A stretch of DNA of 39,987 nucleotides from Candidatus Gastranaerophilales bacterium (lineage in GTDB: Bacteria; Cyanobacteriota; Vampirovibrionia; Gastranaerophilales; Gastranaerophilaceae): the NCBI GenBank assembly GCA_944326615.1, contig CALVEO010000012.1:1-39987 (forward strand). The letters run 5' to 3'. Position 1 is the first letter of the stretch, and each line of letters opens with the position of its first letter. The translations under genes and the position numbers were made by a program. Shown here one piece after another: positions 12,303-32,548 of the stretch. A model generated the notes under the pieces. The model ran no database searches and was not told the origin of the DNA. It worked only from the letters and a program-made list of their open reading frames with translations.

Positions 12303-13026
12303 CTAATAATCCATTTTCCAGCCGTCATTAATGATTTTTGCAAAACAGTATCCGTAAGAATCACCATCTGCAGAAGAACAATCTGTACTAAAACGATTTG
12401 ATAACGCTTCGACATCACCAGGTAAAACATAACCATCATAGCCCAGTTTAAACGAAAACAAATCACGCCCTAATATATTGGGGCCGGCTTTCCCATTAGT
12501 ATCAGTGACAACAGTATAAAATTCGCCCCAATCAGATAAACATATAACTGCCCCGCTTGTTAAAACAGCACACTGGGAATCATCCGGGACTGTATCACTC
12601 AACGCGATAGCTTCACCATTCATATTTGCATAATCAGAACCAAAACAATCAGATGTATCATTACCTGGACAAGTTGCTGTAGTTTTAAAATAGTTAGAGA
12701 AAAAATATGCAATCCCTTCACGTCTCAGCTTAGATTCTCTTAAAGTTGATGCATTGCTGTCAGTCATAATCTGTAAAGCAGCCTGGGAAATGTCATTATA
12801 TACTTTATGAAGTTGGGTTACATAAGTTGATTTTTGATGATTCTGCATTAAAGTAGGTACTGTCAACGCAGATACAACGCCAATAATGCCTAAAGTTACT
12901 AAAACCTCAGCAAGGGTAAATCCACTTTGTTTTTTAAGCAAAAAGCCGTCAAGTTTTTTAATTAAATCCCTTGAGTTAAACTGATTAGCGCCCCCCCACC
13001 CGGAAATTCAAAAAATTTTTCATCAT
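12303..13026 (-). CDS. Type IV pilin-like protein gene with poly-G tract in the leader, frame OFF in this sequence
   Basis: The pilin body (from the TTG at 12941: LLKKQSG then FTLAEVLVTLGIIGVVSALT) is a class of prepilin with cleavage after the Gly before F, Glu at mature +5, a hydrophobic helix of about 20 residues and a 180-residue Cys-containing head. The TTG has no ribosome-binding site. Upstream, at 13026-13021, ATGATG follows AGAGGATTATTAAA. From there the frame reads MMKNFLNFRVGGR and stops at TAA just after a run of seven G (12997-12991). With one G less (or two more) it continues without stop (ANQFNSRDLIKKLDGFL, then LKKQSG) into FTLAEV, giving 240 or 241 residues with F at about 36. 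I read it as a phase-variable gene in the OFF state; a sequencing error in the homopolymer is the alternative. Confidence 0.75.
12991..12997 (-). repeat. Poly-G tract (7 G on the minus strand) in pilin leader
   Basis: Seven G, preceded by T and followed by CGCTAA, lie 30 bases after the ATG. The tract decides which frame the ribosome leaves in: 7 gives an immediate stop, 6 or 9 joins the pilin frame. Confidence 0.85.
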
Positions 13027-21992: not shown

Positions 21993-22879
21993 TTAATAAC
22001 TTATTCTTTGCGGGTAATCTTTAGGTATTTTCCACCCTTCATATTGAATTAATGCAGTACAGAAATAAGGCGTTTCCCCTTTACAACCGTTCAATAGCGT
22101 ATCTCGTGTTCCATCCCATTGCCACATCCATGGTTCAAAACCTTTATTATTATGATATTTCCAATCCTGATTTAGTGCTCTGGGCTGAAAATTAAATGCA
22201 AAAGCACATTTCCCCAACATCATTAAAGTTTCAGGATTTCCATCCATACACTTGGCTGCATTTTGTGGAAAAAATAGCCAATCTCTTGTTGTATCCTGCT
22301 TAAATTGTTTTAACGCACTGCCGTCAGGAAAATATACAATAAATGTACCGTCAGCCAATTCTTCTGTTTTCAAAATTTTCATATAAGGAGCCAGATATTT
22401 ATTAAACCATTTTTCTGCATCAGATGAGCCCGGTATAAGATTACCATCCGCATCAGTCTGCGCCCCCTCTAAATCCTCATACCAGTATATTTTATCGCCA
22501 TAATCATTTTCAGCCATTACAACAGCCTGATTTATAGCTGAATAAAACTTTTTTAGTCTTGTTTCAACAACAGTATTCTTGTGATGTTGAATTAACACAG
22601 GCATAGTCATGGCGGCGACTACCCCGATAATCCCTAAGGTTATTAAAATTTCTGCAAGCGTAAACGCGGCTTGTTTTTTTAGTGAAGAGTGATGAGTGAA
22701 GTGTGTTTTTCTGCTCCCTCCACAAATGAATGGGGCGAGGGGATTAAAAGATAAGCCTTTTACTCTAACCGGCCTACCCTCATATCTTCTTATCTTCTTA
22801 ACTTTAAAAAATCCACTAAAGGAGCTTAGAACGCCCCCCCCCCGACAGGCTTTAATTCTCTTGTCTCAAGTTTTTTCAT
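21993..22879 (-). CDS. Type IV pilin-like protein gene with 10-G tract in the leader, frame OFF in this sequence
   Basis: The gene starts with a perfect AAGGAG site 7 bases before ATG at 22879 and reads MKKLETRELKPV, then meets ten G (22843-22834) and stops six codons later (GGGAF, TAA). With 11 (or 8, or 14) G the frame runs without any stop through a 56-residue basic stretch (for instance FFKVKKIRRYEGRP and KTHFTHHSSLKKQAA) into FTLAEILITLGIIGVVAAM and the rest of a pilin: 295 residues with F at about 73. The first in-frame ATG after the break (22610) falls inside the hydrophobic helix and cannot make a pilin. The head domain ends ALIQYEGWKIPKDYPQRISY, close to the pilin at 31856. The residue before F is Ala, not Gly. 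It lies 44 bp after murG. OFF phase or a homopolymer error are both possible. Confidence 0.8.
22774..22803 (-). repeat. Purine-rich repeat embedded in the pilin leader
   Basis: On the minus strand AAGAAGATAAGAAGATATGA then GGGTAGG is close to the intergenic stretches at 37426-37455 and 39760-39791 (GGTAAGAAGGTAGGAAGATA and similar). In the pilin gene it codes for the Lys/Arg-rich VKKIRRYEGRP segment. Confidence 0.6.
22834..22843 (-). repeat. Poly-G tract (10 G on the minus strand) in pilin leader
   Basis: Ten uninterrupted G, preceded by GTC and followed by CGTTCTAA, 36 bases after the ATG. It has the same placing and the same following CG as the tract at 12991-12997. Confidence 0.9.
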
Positions 22880-22923
22880 ACTCTAACTCCTTATTAAATC
22901 ATAACTACAACTATTATTATAAT

Positions 22924-24018
22924 CTATTTTTTTATTTTTTTCAACTGTTCTGCAATTTTTTCCGTACCGTCAAATTTTGCAAGCGAAAGAGAATTTCGTT
23001 GAAGTTCTTGTAATCGTTCCTTGTCTTTAATCAGTGCGGTAACTGTTTCATATAACAATTTTTCATTTATTTCACTGTCTTCAATATAAATTCCCGCATT
23101 TTTTTCAACCATAAATTTTGCATTTTTCCTTTGATGATCTGCAGCAGCATAAGGATAAGGCACAAATATCGGGGCTATTCCTGATGCGCAGATTTCAGAA
23201 ATGCTTAAAGAGCCGGAGCGGGATACTGCAATATCTGACGCCTTCAAAACAGTAACCATATCATCAAAATAAGGTTTTACAATAAGATTTTTATCTTTTT
23301 CATATTCGGGATAAATTGTCAGGAGCTGTTCTATAACTTTTTCATAATTTTTTCTACCTGTCTGAAAAATCACCTGCAGATCAAAATCTTTTGAAAAAGA
23401 TTTTAAAACCTCAACAGAAGCATCATTTATTGAACGCGCTCCCTGAGAACCTCCCATTATACAAAGAGTTAATTTATTTTCTAACCCAATATTTTTCCTG
23501 GCATCTTCTTTAGAGAGGGTTTTAAATGCCGAACGAATAGGATTGCCGTTTACATAACAGTTTTTATTCTTCAAAAATTTGCAGGCGCTGTCAAATGCAA
23601 CCGAAACACATTTTGCACTTGCAGAAAGTTTTCTAGTAACAAGCCCTGGCTGAGCATCACAATCATGCATCATATAAGGCAAATTCATTAGCTTGGCTGC
23701 CATTAACGCAGGAGCTGAAACATAACCACCGGTGCCAAAAACTACATCAGGTTTATATTTTTTAATATAATAACAGCATTTTAAAACAGCGCACCCTAGC
23801 TGAAACATCCATTTGATAAAATCAAAATTTGCATGACGCGGCATACCATGAACATTTACCCCCAAGAATTTATATCCTTTTTGAGAAACAATGTCATATT
23901 CAAGATTTTTTGGATTTCCGACATAAAATATTTCTTCGCCTTTTAATGCCTCTGCAACAGCTATTGCAGGATAAATATGTCCGCCTGTTCCGCCTCCTGT
24001 TATAAAAAATCTGCTCAT
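22924..24018 (-). CDS. murG: UDP-GlcNAc:lipid I N-acetylglucosaminyltransferase
   Basis: MurG adds GlcNAc to lipid I to make lipid II on the cytoplasmic side of the membrane. The 364 residues start FFITGGGTGGHIYPAIAVAE (4-23) with the glycine-rich acceptor loop, have CIMGGSQGARSINDA in the middle, and RSGSLSISEICASGIAPIFV, then PYPYAAADHQRKNA, the UDP-GlcNAc site. It is the last cell-wall gene of the minus-strand cluster, immediately after ftsW with no gap. A pilin gene follows 44 bp downstream. Confidence 0.97.
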   Translation of the reverse strand: MSRFFITGGGTGGHIYPAIAVAEALKGEEIFYVGNPKNLEYDIVSQKGYKFLGVNVHGMPRHANFDFIKWMFQLGCAVLKCCYYIKKYKPDVVFGTGGYVSAPALMAAKLMNLPYMMHDCDAQPGLVTRKLSASAKCVSVAFDSACKFLKNKNCYVNGNPIRSAFKTLSKEDARKNIGLENKLTLCIMGGSQGARSINDASVEVLKSFSKDFDLQVIFQTGRKNYEKVIEQLLTIYPEYEKDKNLIVKPYFDDMVTVLKASDIAVSRSGSLSISEICASGIAPIFVPYPYAAADHQRKNAKFMVEKNAGIYIEDSEINEKLLYETVTALIKDKERLQELQRNSLSLAKFDGTEKIAEQLKKIKK

Positions 24019-25197
24019 TTAAAATCTATTCCTTATTTTTTTAATTCTTTTTTTAGAAATATTTAAAAGTATTCCGACCATAATCATTGAAACAATAAGA
24101 GATGAACCGCCGTAACTTATGAAAGGAAGCGGCACACCTGTTGTCGGAAGGAATGAACTTGCAACACTCATATTCATAAATGCCTGAAACGTAATGGAAA
24201 AAGTAATTCCGACAGCTAAAAGCTTGCCGTACATATCAGGACATCTCGCAGCAATTACAAAACCTCTCTGCATAAAAGTAAAAAATAAACCGATTACAAG
24301 CACACATCCGACAAAGCCGAGTTCTTCCGCAATAATTGCAAAAATAAAATCTGTATGGCATTCTGGCAGATAAGAAAGTTTCTGAATAGAGCCTCCGTAG
24401 CCGACTCCGCTAAATCCGCCTGATGCAAAAGCAATAAGCGATTGAATAATATTATACCCTGCGCCTAAAGGATCAAGCTCCGGATGGCGCCAGGTTTTTA
24501 TACGCTGGAGCTGATAAGGTTTAATAATTGTAGTAAGCCCTACCACAAGCGCCATAACCATCGCACCTACACAGCTCAAAAAAAGCTTCATTGACCCGCC
24601 TGCAGCCATATACATTACAACGGTTGTCATCCCGAGAAGAATTACCATAGAAAGGTTTGGCTGTATAAAAATTAATCCTGCCATCGCAATTATCGGGAAA
24701 AACGCCCACACCCATTTATTCTGGTCGAAAAGATTTGCATCTTTTCTAAAAGCATTCGCAAGCAATAGAACAACGGCAGGTTTTGCAAATTCTGAAGGCT
24801 GTAATTGAAATCCTGCAATATTTATCCATCTTTTTGCACCGTTTACAACAACACCAAGAGGCGTAAAATCAACTAAAAACAATGCAATCAAAATTGATGC
24901 CATAATAATAACATTCCAGTCTGCAAGTTTTTTATAATCATAGTTCATAAAAAACTTTAAACCGAAAAAACCGACAATAAAACAAATTAACTGTTTTATC
25001 AAAAACTGAGCAGGATTTCCGCCCTCATCAAGACATTTGGGCGCAGTAGCCGAAAATATCGCAAGAAATCCGATAATTACAAGGAAAGCTACGACAATCA
25101 ACAATGTCTTGTCAGGAGACGATATTATAATACTTTGAATTGGCTGCTCACTGCGTCTTTCCCGCGGTTCACGCCTTGTTGATCTTTGATAAGACAT
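24019..25197 (-). CDS. ftsW: SEDS peptidoglycan glycosyltransferase / cell division protein
   Basis: A SEDS polymerase that extends glycan strands from lipid II at the septum with a class b PBP. After a basic 35-residue cytoplasmic tail the 392-residue protein has about ten membrane helices, ending with GVPLPFISYGGSSLIVSMIM, the SEDS hallmark. ANAFRKDANLFDQNKWVWAF and PYQLQRIKTWRHPELDPLGA are also typical. FtsW rather than RodA is chosen because of its place between murD and murG. I start at ATG 25197 (MSYQRSTRREP), preceded by AAGGAAT; it lies inside the murD 3' end (29-bp overlap). Longer in-frame starts only re-read murD. Confidence 0.93.
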   Translation of the reverse strand: MSYQRSTRREPRERRSEQPIQSIIISSPDKTLLIVVAFLVIIGFLAIFSATAPKCLDEGGNPAQFLIKQLICFIVGFFGLKFFMNYDYKKLADWNVIIMASILIALFLVDFTPLGVVVNGAKRWINIAGFQLQPSEFAKPAVVLLLANAFRKDANLFDQNKWVWAFFPIIAMAGLIFIQPNLSMVILLGMTTVVMYMAAGGSMKLFLSCVGAMVMALVVGLTTIIKPYQLQRIKTWRHPELDPLGAGYNIIQSLIAFASGGFSGVGYGGSIQKLSYLPECHTDFIFAIIAEELGFVGCVLVIGLFFTFMQRGFVIAARCPDMYGKLLAVGITFSITFQAFMNMSVASSFLPTTGVPLPFISYGGSSLIVSMIMVGILLNISKKRIKKIRNRF

Positions 25198-26542
25198 ATT
25201 CCTTAAATACCTTTCCTCTTTCCTCATATCCGCTGAACATATCAAAACTTGCACAGGCAGGCGATAATAAAACAACATCAGGATTTAGTTCAATTGCCCT
25301 GTCAATTGCAGACTGCATTGTGTCTTCCCTTAAAACATTATCAAACCCGCTTTTTCTTAAATTTTCTTCAAATCTGTCAGAGGCTTCGCCAATCAAAATT
25401 ACAGTTTTGATATGTTCTTTCACAGCATCACAAAATTCCGTCAAATCCGTATTTTTATCACGCCCTCCGGCAATCAATACTACATCACAGTTATTAAATG
25501 AATTAATCGCAACAAGACTTGCCTCAGGATTTGTGGCTTTTGAATCATTATAAAAAACTGTTTTACCGCTTTGTGCGAATTTTTCAAGCCTATGCTCGGG
25601 AACTTTAAACGACATAATTGATGACTTTATATCTTCGTTTGAAATTCCTTCAATTTTGGCGGCAATAACAGCACACATAACATTCTGATAATTATGGCTG
25701 CCGATAAGCGGGCAGTCATCAAGAGTAATAATTTTTTCTTCTTTACCGTTACGTTTAAAATATATTGCTCCGTCTTTTATGTAAGAGCAGTTTTCGCCTA
25801 TATCTCCGTCAAAAAGGAATACTGTTCCGCCGCATTCTTTTGAAAATTCAAGCAGTTTTTCATCTTTTGCATTCAAAACAGAAAACTGCGGCGCCTGAGG
25901 ACCTTTAAAGATTTTAGCCTTGGCTTTAAAATAATTTTCCAATCCTCCATGCCAGTCAATATGATCGGGAGTAAAGTTTGTAAAAACAGAAATCTGCGGC
26001 TGGAATGAATTGCTGTATTCTAACTGGAAAGAACTACATTCACAAACCATAAAATCAATATCTTTATCCAGCAAATCACATGGCGGAACTCCGTAATTTC
26101 CGCAGGGTTCTGCTTTATATTCACTTGAAAGTATATGCGCTGTCAAAGCTGTTGTTGTTGTTTTCCCGTTAGTTCCTGTTATTGCAATAAACGGAGTACC
26201 TGTTTGCGATGCGGCAAGCTCTATTTCAGATATTACCTTTATTTTATTTTCTTTTAATTTTTGCATTATCGCTGAATGCGGAGGAATACCCGGCGATGTA
26301 ACAGCAATATAAGAATCATTTATAAATTCATCGCTGTGTCCGCCCATTTCTATTTTAATCCCTGTATCTCTAAGTTCTTTCAAAATTTGAGCATCTTCAG
26401 TTTTTTCTTCCCGGAATTCAGTTATATAAACATCTGCTCCTGCCTTATTTAAGTATTTAGCAGCAGAAATTCCGCTTTTGGATAACCCGAGAACCAGAAC
26501 TTTTTTATCAGCCAATTTTACATTCGGTAACAATGATTTCAT
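25169..26542 (-). CDS. murD: UDP-N-acetylmuramoyl-L-alanine:D-glutamate ligase
   Basis: MurD adds D-Glu to UDP-MurNAc-L-Ala. The 457 residues show the N-terminal Rossmann-like VLVLGLSKSGISAAKYL (15-31), the ATP loop FIAITGTNGKTTTTALTAH, NYGVPPCDLLD, NFTPDHIDWHG, VPEHRLEKF, FYNDSKATNPEASLVAINSF, LIAGGRDKNTDL and the closing LLSPACASFDMFSGYEERG. These are all typical MurD positions and the length is normal. Its start directly abuts the mraY stop codon, and its end overlaps ftsW. Confidence 0.97.
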   Translation of the reverse strand: MKSLLPNVKLADKKVLVLGLSKSGISAAKYLNKAGADVYITEFREEKTEDAQILKELRDTGIKIEMGGHSDEFINDSYIAVTSPGIPPHSAIMQKLKENKIKVISEIELAASQTGTPFIAITGTNGKTTTTALTAHILSSEYKAEPCGNYGVPPCDLLDKDIDFMVCECSSFQLEYSNSFQPQISVFTNFTPDHIDWHGGLENYFKAKAKIFKGPQAPQFSVLNAKDEKLLEFSKECGGTVFLFDGDIGENCSYIKDGAIYFKRNGKEEKIITLDDCPLIGSHNYQNVMCAVIAAKIEGISNEDIKSSIMSFKVPEHRLEKFAQSGKTVFYNDSKATNPEASLVAINSFNNCDVVLIAGGRDKNTDLTEFCDAVKEHIKTVILIGEASDRFEENLRKSGFDNVLREDTMQSAIDRAIELNPDVVLLSPACASFDMFSGYEERGKVFKEYVLSKINKA

Positions 26543-27523
26543 CTAAATTATTCCTCGATTAAATAAAATATACAAAATAAGCGCTGAAGCGGAAAGAATT
26601 GCAGAAACAAGTGCAAAGACGCATACAATTTTCTTTTCACTCCAATCGCATAATTCAAAATGGTGATGTATCGGTGCCATTTTGAAAACTCTTTTGCCTG
26701 TTGTTTTAAAGCTTGTAACCTGAATTATAACAGACAAAGTTTCCATCACAAAAACGCCGGCAATAAGTATCAAAAGTATTTCAAACTTTCCTAATACAGC
26801 AACAGTTCCCAAAAGTCCGCCGATTGCAAGCGAGCCCGTATCCCCCATAAATACCTGAGCTTTTGGCTTATTGTATTTTAAAAATCCTGCTAATGCACCT
26901 GCAACAGCCGCAGAAATTATCGCAGCTTCAGGATATCCGGAAAATAAACAAATCAATGCACACGCCGCAAATGAAAAAATGCCTGTTGATGCGGCAAGCC
27001 CGTCAAGTCCGTCAGTCAAATTGTAAGCATTAGAAGCTCCCGTAATAACAAATACTGAAAAAACAGGATAAAACCAGCTCAAATGTAGAACATAATGTCC
27101 GATTGCTATATCTCCAGCGTTATCTTTTGTCATCATAAGATAAAGAGTCGGAAGCATTGCAATTGCAATTTGTCTTAAAAGCTTTCCTCGCGGGGTCAAG
27201 CCGTCATTGCCTTTACCTTTTAACTTTATATAATCATCTTGAAATCCTGCAAACGTATAAAATAAAAGGGTTAAAAGTATAATAAAAGCTTCTGTCGAAA
27301 GCCTCTGCGCCATTGCAAGAGTGATAATAGAACCCAGAATTATTGCAAGAATTATAAAAATACCGCCTGTTGTAGGTGTACCCTGTTTTTTAGCATGAGC
27401 TTCTGGTGCACAGCCTTTGACATACTGCCCTATCATATGCTTTTTCAAAAAATCTATATAAGGAACGCCAAAAAGCAAACACAATATCATTCCCAGTAAA
27501 AATGCAACTGCCAGCATTATCAT
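26543..27523 (-). CDS. mraY: Phospho-N-acetylmuramoyl-pentapeptide transferase
   Basis: MraY moves phospho-MurNAc-pentapeptide to undecaprenyl phosphate, giving lipid I. The 326-residue, ten-helix protein has HAKKQGTPTTGGIFIILAII (43-62), FQDDYIKLKGKGNDGLTPRG with the Asp pair, GASNAYNLTDGLDGLAAST, VFMGDTGSLAIGGLL, and MAPIHHHFELCDWSEKKIV with the HHH motif. All catalytic motifs are present. The start has GGAAAGGGT about 7 bases upstream, within DNA of the 109-bp tandem repeat that separates it from murF. Confidence 0.97.
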   Translation of the reverse strand: MIMLAVAFLLGMILCLLFGVPYIDFLKKHMIGQYVKGCAPEAHAKKQGTPTTGGIFIILAIILGSIITLAMAQRLSTEAFIILLTLLFYTFAGFQDDYIKLKGKGNDGLTPRGKLLRQIAIAMLPTLYLMMTKDNAGDIAIGHYVLHLSWFYPVFSVFVITGASNAYNLTDGLDGLAASTGIFSFAACALICLFSGYPEAAIISAAVAGALAGFLKYNKPKAQVFMGDTGSLAIGGLLGTVAVLGKFEILLILIAGVFVMETLSVIIQVTSFKTTGKRVFKMAPIHHHFELCDWSEKKIVCVFALVSAILSASALILYILFNRGII

Positions 27524-27530
27524 TTTTTTT

Positions 27531-27756
27531 ACCCTTTCCGTAAATTTTCGTTTAATTTTGTCTATTTTCGTCAGTCGCTGCGCTATAACTCTTTTTTACA
27601 ATTATCTTGATACATCATTATACGCTTGCTCCCGTTTTTACCCTTTCCGTAAATTTTCGTTTAATTTTGTCTATTTTCGTCAGTCGCTGCGCTATAACTC
27701 TTTTTCACAATTATCTTGATACATCATTATACGCTTGCTCCCGTTTTTACCCTTTC
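27531..27756. repeat. Tandem 109-bp duplication between murF and mraY
   Basis: Two units, 27531-27639 and 27640-27748, differ by a single base (TTTTTTACAATT against TTTTTCACAATT), and a third begins (ACCCTTTC, 27749-27756). Each unit on the minus strand contains GGGAGCAAGCGTATAATGAT and a tiny frame (MMYQDNCEKEL). The near identity points to a recent duplication. It lengthens the murF-mraY gap to 234 bp inside an otherwise tight operon. Confidence 0.95.
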
Positions 27757-27757
27757 A

Positions 27758-29065
27758 TTATTTTTTTAAATTCTCTATTATCTCTTCAAACTTCATCGCC
27801 CTTGAAGCCTTTAAAAATATTGTAATACCCGCATGCAAATTATCAAGAATGTAACGAGATGTTGCAAGATTGGTGTCAAAATGTTTTACATCAAATCCAT
27901 ACTTTAATAATTCATCGCCGATATACTTTGCAAGCTTCCCGACAGTAAGAAATACTGCCTGTTTGCCTTGAAACTTCCTGCCGAAAAATTCGCCGACTTC
28001 GCGGTGAAACTCAATTTCAGCCTCGCCCAGCTCTCCCATATCACCAAGAATTACAACAGGATTTTCATACAACTCCAAAAATGTTGAAACAGAAGCTTTC
28101 ATTGATTCAGGATTTGCATTATAGCTGTCATTTATAATTTTATATCCGTTAATTTCCTGGATTTCCCAGCGTTTTTCTATCTGGTGGTATTTTGCCAGAC
28201 CCCGCTTAATCTCTTCATAAGACATACCCAGCTTAAAGCCAAGTTCAATTGCAGACAGAGAATTTTCAATATTGTAATCACCTTCAACATTTAGATCGTA
28301 TTCATCGCCCTTATAGCGAAATTTAGAATACCCTTTGCGTTTTTTCAAAATTTCCGCATCATTTATTGAATAAAAAATCTTTTCACCCGCAAAGTCTGCG
28401 AATTTTTTAATCCTTTCATTATTCTGTGCAATAAGAGTATTCTTTAAATATTTTGTAATTTCGCATTTAGCTTTTGCAATATTATCAAGACTCCCCAGAC
28501 GCCCTATATGAGCAGAACCTGCATTTGTAATAATCGCGAAATCAGGTTGTGCATATTTTGTAATAAGTTCAATTTCTCCAAACCCTCGCATTCCCATTTC
28601 AATAATCAACACTTCAGTATCTTCGGGCATTGAAAGAACTGTCTGACAGAAACCGATTTCGTTATTATGGTTAGAGAAAGTTTTGTGAGTTTTGAATTTT
28701 TCAGACAGAACAGAATACACCATCTCTTTTGTCGTAGTTTTGCCGGAGCTTCCCGTAATACCAACAACTATAGGATTATATTTTTCCCTGGCAAAATTTG
28801 CAATCTGCAAATAAGCTTTTAACGTATCAGGAACTTTTAAACTGAACTCAGAACAGCAGTCTTTTGTACAAAAACACCCTGCTGCTCCGGCCTCTATTGC
28901 TTTAGCACAAAAACTTTCCCCGTCAAAGTTTGCCCCCTTTAAAGGCAAATACAAATCACCTTTTTTTATCGTTCGTGTATCAGTAGAAATATCAAATTCT
29001 CCATTGATATGTCCTTTAATTTCGGCATTTGTAGCTTTTTTCAATTCTTCTACAGTAAATTTCAT
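27758..29065 (-). CDS. murF: UDP-N-acetylmuramoyl-tripeptide:D-alanyl-D-alanine ligase
   Basis: MurF adds D-Ala-D-Ala to complete the UDP-MurNAc-pentapeptide. The 435 residues include the N-terminal Mur domain (GHINGEFDISTDTRTIKKGD), the ATP loop VVGITGSSGKTTTKEMVYSV (about 99-118), TFSNHNNEIG, IEMGMRGFGEIELITK, TNAGSAHIGRLGS, EKRWEIQEINGYKIINDSYN, ANPESMKASV and VILGDMGELGEAEIEFHREV. It heads the cluster; ATG 29065 follows GAGGGAGAG. murE and murC are not in this window. No promoter stands out in the short gap toward rplU, which is divergent. Confidence 0.97.
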   Translation of the reverse strand: MKFTVEELKKATNAEIKGHINGEFDISTDTRTIKKGDLYLPLKGANFDGESFCAKAIEAGAAGCFCTKDCCSEFSLKVPDTLKAYLQIANFAREKYNPIVVGITGSSGKTTTKEMVYSVLSEKFKTHKTFSNHNNEIGFCQTVLSMPEDTEVLIIEMGMRGFGEIELITKYAQPDFAIITNAGSAHIGRLGSLDNIAKAKCEITKYLKNTLIAQNNERIKKFADFAGEKIFYSINDAEILKKRKGYSKFRYKGDEYDLNVEGDYNIENSLSAIELGFKLGMSYEEIKRGLAKYHQIEKRWEIQEINGYKIINDSYNANPESMKASVSTFLELYENPVVILGDMGELGEAEIEFHREVGEFFGRKFQGKQAVFLTVGKLAKYIGDELLKYGFDVKHFDTNLATSRYILDNLHAGITIFLKASRAMKFEEIIENLKK

Positions 29066-31855: not shown

Positions 31856-32548
31856 ATGAAAAAAGGATTTACACTTGCAGAAGTGCTTATCACATTGGGG
31901 ATTATAGGAGTAGTAGCTGCACTGACTCTGCCTGCACTTATTGCAAACCATAGGAAAAGCGTTATAGAGACAAGGCTTGCGAAATTTTACAGTATAATAA
32001 ATCAGGCTATTATAGCATCAGAAATAGAAAATGGAGATAAAATATATTGGGATCAACTATCTTCAGATAACAGCCAAGCAATAGATGATGAAGGAAAACC
32101 TGTAGCTATGGCATGGTATAATAAATATCTTGCAAAATATATTGATACACTAAAAGTAGAAGAAGATAACAATTATGAAGGAAAAATAAAAGTTTATTTT
32201 AAAGATGGGAGCCTGGTTTTAATTTCTGGAAGTAGCTGGATATTTTATCCGAAAGCACATGATTATGAAAAACTAGTTAATTCAAATGACCAAACTGACA
32301 GGAACCGCGAAGATTCCGGTATTAAATATTTTACATTTTCGTTTTATCCCTGGAACAAAAACAATAAATATCATTACGGGAAAGGGCTTGAACCTTATCT
32401 TAACAAATGGGACGGCACAGAAGAAACATTAAGAAATCACAATTCATATGGATGCAAAGAATCTGTAAGCAATGAAAGAGCTTACTGTACGGCGTTAATT
32501 CAGATGAACGGATGGAAAATTCCTAAAGATTACCCGTTAAGATTGTAG
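31856..32548 (+). CDS. Type IV pilin-like protein, intact
   Basis: A prepilin of 230 residues: MKKG, then FTLAEVLITLGIIGVVAALT with Glu at mature +5, then a helix (SVIETRLAKFYSIINQAIIA) and a head domain with two Cys in SYGCKESVSNERAYCTALIQ and a closing QMNGWKIPKDYPLRL. The prepilin peptidase would cut after Gly4. GGAGG lies 10 bases before the ATG. Unlike the two pilin genes with poly-G tracts it has a minimal leader and is in frame from a clear start. Its tail is close to that of the pilin at 21993-22879, so the two are paralogues. An HTH regulator is divergent. Pilin-like proteins of this type may be minor pilins, pseudopilins of a secretion or uptake system, or adhesins; the sequence does not decide. 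Confidence 0.9.
   Translation: MKKGFTLAEVLITLGIIGVVAALTLPALIANHRKSVIETRLAKFYSIINQAIIASEIENGDKIYWDQLSSDNSQAIDDEGKPVAMAWYNKYLAKYIDTLKVEEDNNYEGKIKVYFKDGSLVLISGSSWIFYPKAHDYEKLVNSNDQTDRNREDSGIKYFTFSFYPWNKNNKYHYGKGLEPYLNKWDGTEETLRNHNSYGCKESVSNERAYCTALIQMNGWKIPKDYPLRL

Follow-up and report, generated by a model that had tools for sequence, protein, structure and literature searches.

A ten-base G tract leaves a pilin gene one base out of frame in a Gastranaerophilales genome and points to a large, default-OFF prepilin repertoire

The window, by which we mean the whole 39,987-nt stretch of DNA that was analysed (contig CALVEO010000012.1 of a Candidatus Gastranaerophilales bacterium), carries on its reverse strand a type IV pilin-like gene whose beginning is interrupted by a tract of ten G residues (Table 1). 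Re-reading the sequence recovered exactly the arrangement given in the initial annotation, in which AAGGAG, an ATG at 22879, twelve codons and G10 are followed by GCG TTC TAA. The gene follows murG at a distance of 45 nt, on the same strand, and closes a mur/fts cell-wall cluster (window positions 22924-29065). The window also contains an in-frame pilin paralog with no tract and a first pilin locus, which requires the loss of one base or the gain of two to be read in frame. The window gene and the first locus had been described as two OFF pilins of the same architecture; both are indeed out of frame, but the tract of the first locus is an interrupted G7 rather than a G10, and for this reason that locus looks decayed.

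Table 1. Features of the window gene and of the other pilin loci in the window
Feature	Position	Strand	Basis
Shine-Dalgarno site AAGGAG of the tract ORF	22887..22892	-	sequence
ATG (22879-22877) and following codons, 12 in total (MKKLETRELKPV), ahead of the tract; n5 = 36 nt	22844..22879	-	
G10 tract with C..C flanks; OFF at 10, ON at 8/11/14	22834..22843	-	genus modal length
TAA, stop of the 10-frame directly past the tract (GCG TTC TAA)	22826..22828	-	
RGCY motif (AGCT); on the G strand, 7 nt 3' from the tract	22823..22826	-	
Leader, 169 nt, from tract to pilin; dispersed repeats, open in the pilin frame only	22665..22833	-	BLASTN
Coding region of the type IV pilin-like protein, counted from the expected site of cleavage, A|FTLAEILITLGIIGVV	21993..22664	-	
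First pilin locus, likewise out of frame; its GGGTGGGGGGG tract is interrupted (G7 at 12991-12997)	12303..13026	-	
Pilin paralog without tract (MKKGFTLAEV...), in frame	31856..32548	+	

In computed translations of the window gene, the G10 allele gives a product of 17 aa and the G9, G12 and G13 alleles terminate at 18-21 aa, while the G11 and G8 alleles yield proteins of 295 and 294 aa, respectively, which run through FTLAEILITLGIIGVV to the stop at 21993. The earlier claim that a single added G opens the pilin frame with no intervening stop is thus borne out by the 295-aa product of the G11 allele. From 22865 to FTLAE (22664), the pilin frame has neither a stop nor any ATG, GTG or TTG. Because the pilin frame lacks a start of its own, the pilin can be reached only through a change of frame at the tract. 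Judged computationally by the criteria for SSR phase variation set out in PMC11868660, tract length alone sets the frame, with no bypass start.

The pilin of the window gene contains an N_methyl domain (PF07963; 25.1 bits against a cut-off of 21.2) and DUF6613 (PF20318). The N-terminal methylation motif of type IV pilins is present, and across the set of tract pilins the residue ahead of F is A (86) or G (38). An AlphaFold2 model of the protein (pLDDT 87) has an N-terminal helix of 53 residues (8-60) followed by a beta-rich domain, so the predicted fold combines the expected long N-terminal helix with a globular beta domain. A Foldseek search of the model against the PDB returned no significant match, with FimA appearing weakly.

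The leaders of the tract pilins are far longer than usual prepilin leaders. The window gene has 72 aa before FTLAE, and the set has a median of 55 and reaches 318, rather than the short leader expected of a type IV prepilin; relatives with leaders of 12-30 aa exist. By BLASTN, the window leader (56 codons) matches dozens of other tract loci at 80-94%. The leaders of the window gene and of loci L039-L098 are up to ~300 codons long, are built of dispersed repeats and are always open in the pilin frame, and in many genes the cleavage region occurs twice owing to a tandem module, FTLAEGATHVVHFDDIRRAAFTLAE. If removed by prepilin peptidase, such a leader would be a safe site for repeat insertions. 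Between the tract and FTLAE, the pilin frame is free of stops over 9,542 leader codons, compared to 643 and 857 stops in the other two frames. Where 11 bases is the ON length, reading past the tract meets its first stop after a median of 4 codons in the 10-frame vs. 8 in the 9-frame (p = 5e-18). The near 10-frame stop and the open leader look, from the sequences, like signs of selection on the OFF state.

Long G tracts had been noted as rare in this DNA, and the window does contain more than chance predicts: five G7 matches against a shuffle mean of 0.81, with 0/100 shuffles reaching five. Across the 78 contigs of the host genome (1.96 Mb), there are exact runs of G10 at 64 positions, five each of G11 and G9, and none of G8 or G12; geometric decay of the shorter runs leads one to expect ~0.1 G10 runs genome-wide (about 0.006 per 154 kb). 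The pilin finds ~120 matches in the same genome, and in many of them the frame stays open over a long stretch ahead of FTLAE. The proposal that the window reflects a switching system rather than two accidents is supported by these 64 G10 runs, on a scale far beyond two genes. Several contigs of the host genome (among C55, C63, C72, C9, C21, C23 and C30) have a tract locus in or near their first few hundred bases; since the repeat-rich tract pilins break the assembly, their number is a lower bound.

A protein search of GTDB contigs found eight relatives, including Candidatus Scatousia excrementigallinarum and Candidatus Gastranaerophilales bins. Across 33 congeneric genomes, the totals are 58 G8, 148 G9, 1621 G10, 150 G11 and 47 G12 runs, and with one divergent species, G025, left out (32 genomes), they are 50, 143, 1609, 135 and 29, respectively. 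At least 20 G10 runs are present in 25 of the 33 genomes, with a maximum of 169; four genomes have none. In 20 sampled genomes from other families of the order, we found 0-3 G10 runs each. The majority of the classified G10 tracts lie at the start of pilin genes.

For each tract located behind a Shine-Dalgarno site and an ATG, in stretches taken around the tracts, we determined which tract length opens the long frame. Of 105 non-redundant congeneric pilins whose G or C tract is ten bases long, one additional base is needed by 98, while five are ON and two need the loss of one base (binomial p = 2e-38 for 98/105 against 1/3). A sample restricted to one locus per genome gave 17/19 in need of +1, and the few classifiable pilins from other genera of the family mostly fit the same rule (L223, L306). 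The 98 genes comprise 61 G tracts and 37 C tracts, with n5 mod 3 equal to 0, 1 and 2 in 28, 39 and 31 cases, respectively. Since all three phases and both G and C tracts are represented, the rule is not the property of one frozen cassette; these observations, together with the different leader types, speak against simple inheritance of a single cassette as the sole cause. Non-pilin genes with a ten-base tract are mostly in frame at 10 (an RHS-repeat-like protein, an EF-hand-like protein and the L088/L256 family of no assigned kind), which speaks against systematic undercalling of 11-base tracts in the assemblies.

Tracts were also seen in other gene types. One is a tract-bearing gene for a pilin-like protein that has YadA head repeats (METVLRNVNIGGGALLSTPAN..., FTLAEMMVVMLIMS; L059, L319, L326, L110); the host genome has it in frame at G10, other genomes at 11. 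An OmpA/MotB-like membrane protein gene (FWTTMADLLLGLAIIFM; L117, L128) has G10 after 7-13 codons and needs +1, which makes it a further candidate for a switched surface protein.

Tract length varies between closely related copies. Within the host genome, the paralogs L308 and L055 have 9 vs. 10 Gs with a flank identity of 59/60, and L083 and L054 have 10 vs. 11 bases in the tract. Repeat length thus differs between near-identical copies, as SSR phase variation requires. Three loci of the host genome (L054, L058, L080) carry 11-base ON alleles, and in many congeneric genomes members of the same families have 11-base tracts that lead in frame into FTLAE pilins, so ON (11-base) and OFF (10-base) pilins occur together in the host genome and in others. 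The lack of an in-frame version elsewhere in the clade, which the initial annotation held would count against a switch, is excluded by these alleles. In species G025 (L368, L390-L428), tract genes have lengths of 9-16, vs. the sharp peak at 10 in the rest of the genus. Homologous pilins in G025 have 11-16 Gs, and unlike the rest of the genus, five of its pilins are ON, four need +1 and 13 need -1. With its broad lengths and mixed states, G025 looks, by analogy, like a set of classical contingency loci, and because of this resemblance slipped-strand phase variation is the best reading for the genus. Simple loss of mutS can be set aside as a cause of hypermutability, as MutS is present in 32/33 genomes.

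We favor the interpretation, to which we assign a probability of roughly 0.72, that the window gene is a member of a large default-OFF prepilin repertoire governed by slipped-strand phase variation, in which ten bases is the OFF equilibrium and a rare eleven is ON. A G10 or C10 tract 7-13 codons past the start would place the long downstream frame one base out, and replication slippage, presumably reversible, would alter the tract length. At the resting length of 10, translation would produce a dead peptide of 14-20 aa ending at the stop just past the tract; the gain of one base would restore the frame through the leader into the pilin, which could then be expressed, and prepilin peptidase would remove the leader at A/G|FTLAE to leave a putative surface pilin. 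Of the ~50 tract pilins in a genome, a small number would be ON at any given time, so clones would differ in pilus composition. A mutational balance like that of Campylobacter jejuni would, by analogy, make 10 the resting length, with the pilin frames set such that resting means OFF. Passive slippage alone does not account for the near-universal ON state at 11, rather than at 9 or 10, or for the RGCY motif described below.

The strikingly constant need for +1 at length 10 could instead reflect programmed frameshifting or transcript slippage, in which a fixed G10/C10 tract is a recoding site where ribosomes (-1) or RNA polymerase (+1 nt) slip and every cell makes some of every pilin from the G10 allele. 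The proximity of the 10-frame stop would suit such a mechanism, and ten bases is about the length of the RNA-DNA hybrid. Ribosomal slippage, however, would be odd with G and C runs alike and in all three phases, and both versions sit poorly with the 9- and 11-base alleles in the same families, with the lengths and mixed frames of G025, and with the non-pilin genes that keep ten-base tracts already in frame. In programmed frameshift genes the recoding site is expected in all homologs, whereas homologs here may have an 11-base in-frame tract or no tract at all. We regard this explanation as unlikely.

C usually flanks the tract on both sides in the genus, and a further element lies downstream. 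Read on the G strand, RGCY (mostly AGCT) occurs 7-9 nt 3' of the tract in 61/73 G-type and 20/37 C-type non-redundant loci; at offsets of 5-10, the counts rise to 67/73 and 22/37, compared to 10.6% of control G4-G6 runs. We found no comparable RGCY peak elsewhere within 30 nt on either side of the tract. Its occurrences cover all codon positions and either direction of the gene, which rules out protein-level conservation and indicates a constraint on the DNA. RGCY therefore looks like a DNA-level element, as far as sequence comparison can tell, behind which could stand a binding factor or the common descent of leader modules in both orientations. RGCY is slightly depleted at lengths other than 10 (OR 2.3, p = 0.02), and in G025, where tract lengths are no longer sharp, it is found at 0/21 pilin tracts and hardly any tract keeps the C..C flanks. 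This link between motif and length comes from one species and is a lead.

These observations raise the idea of an actively controlled switch, in which a factor binds C-G10-C with RGCY 7-9 nt downstream, fixes the tract at 10 and governs its expansion. The enrichment of the motif, its indifference to codon position and orientation, its slight depletion off length 10 and its absence from the broad-length species would all agree with this. Against it, the contrast comes from a single species, leader modules could carry the motif by common descent, there is no candidate factor, and in C. jejuni the flanks had no effect on slippage as judged from PCR products (PMC4965091). We consider such control improbable. 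In its fullest form, also doubtful, a trans-acting factor would read C-G10-C plus RGCY in either direction, hold the tract at ten and license a rare +1, amounting to an enzymatic program rather than passive slippage; if so, each genome would have a large set of genes, with G10 tracts numbering up to 169, switched under enzymatic control.

Decay of the tract genes into frameshifted pseudogenes of the pilin family would explain why the assemblies show the majority of copies out of frame and why the first locus is interrupted, but is very hard to credit given the stop-free leader codons in the shifted frame, the always identical one-base deficit and the intact pilin domains, which are 45-73% identical between species with dozens of invariant columns. 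Equally far-fetched is a sequencing or assembly artefact in which real 11-base tracts are undercalled as 10: homopolymers are error-prone and the genomes are probably all metagenome assemblies, but the G10 excess recurs in ~29 separately assembled species, non-pilin ten-base tracts read in frame, 9- and 11-base calls exist, and A/T runs show normal decay.

Several known systems share parts of this architecture. Rickettsia palindromic elements are repeats inserted in frame in coding genes, much as the leaders here, from tract to pilin, are dispersed repeats read in frame; here, however, the repeats are confined to a would-be-cleaved leader behind a frame switch. C. jejuni NCTC11168 has 29 poly-G/C tracts of 7 or more (PMC4965091). 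Its intragenic G/C tracts of ~9-11 likewise set the reading frame, and their mutation is biased toward intermediate length, with insertions favored at G8 and deletions at G11 and above, such that tracts are held at G9-G10 (PMC8355987). The C. jejuni loci mostly modify surface structures and spread over G8-G12, whereas here a pilin family dominates, the peak at 10 is sharp, ~93% of pilins are alike in needing +1, and the tract has a flanking motif. Neisseria also has many homopolymer-switched surface genes per genome (115 genes are supported in the N. meningitidis SSR phasome; PMC5084427), but there the diversity of pilins is generated by RecA-mediated recombination (PMC11868660) rather than by a large pilin family in which each gene has its own G-tract switch. 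The vlhA genes of Mycoplasma gallisepticum resemble the present case in being a big surface-protein family with a repeat per gene, conserved repeat flanks and a specific repeat number tied to the ON state; their GAA repeat, however, lies in the promoter and controls transcription, whereas the tract here is inside the ORF, past the Shine-Dalgarno site and ATG, and acts on the frame at the coding start (PMC6258824).

Within the full-text literature (most subscription journals lie outside it), we found no paper linking phase variation and Gastranaerophilales, or phase-variable genes and Melainabacteria. Homopolymer phase variation is known as a class of mechanism; what is new is the lineage ("Scatousia"-like Gastranaerophilales), how large a repertoire a single pilin family supplies, the uniform shortfall of one base and the DNA motif beside the tract. 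Such switching systems are usually described in pathogens. Our results point to very large, stochastic, default-off switching of surface proteins in a harmless-looking, non-photosynthetic gut cyanobacterial lineage with up to 169 G10 tracts per genome, nearly all in one default state, and make the question testable in metagenomes from healthy animals. The uniform +1 deficit and RGCY raise the question of whether homopolymer length is actively set.

The tracts are not distributed evenly. G10 runs are almost absent from five genomes of the genus (G002, G003, G004, G022 and G024); pilin candidates are few in G003, G022 and G024 (11-26) and number 157 in G004 and 105 in G002, and because the latter two are rich in pilins yet nearly free of G10, loss of the tract and loss of pilins can be uncoupled. 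In other genera of the family (L306, L307, L223, L233, L235, L237, L238, L240), the tract is often followed by TAAA rather than by CA..AGCT, as in TAC-G10-TAAA, and several such runs are intergenic.
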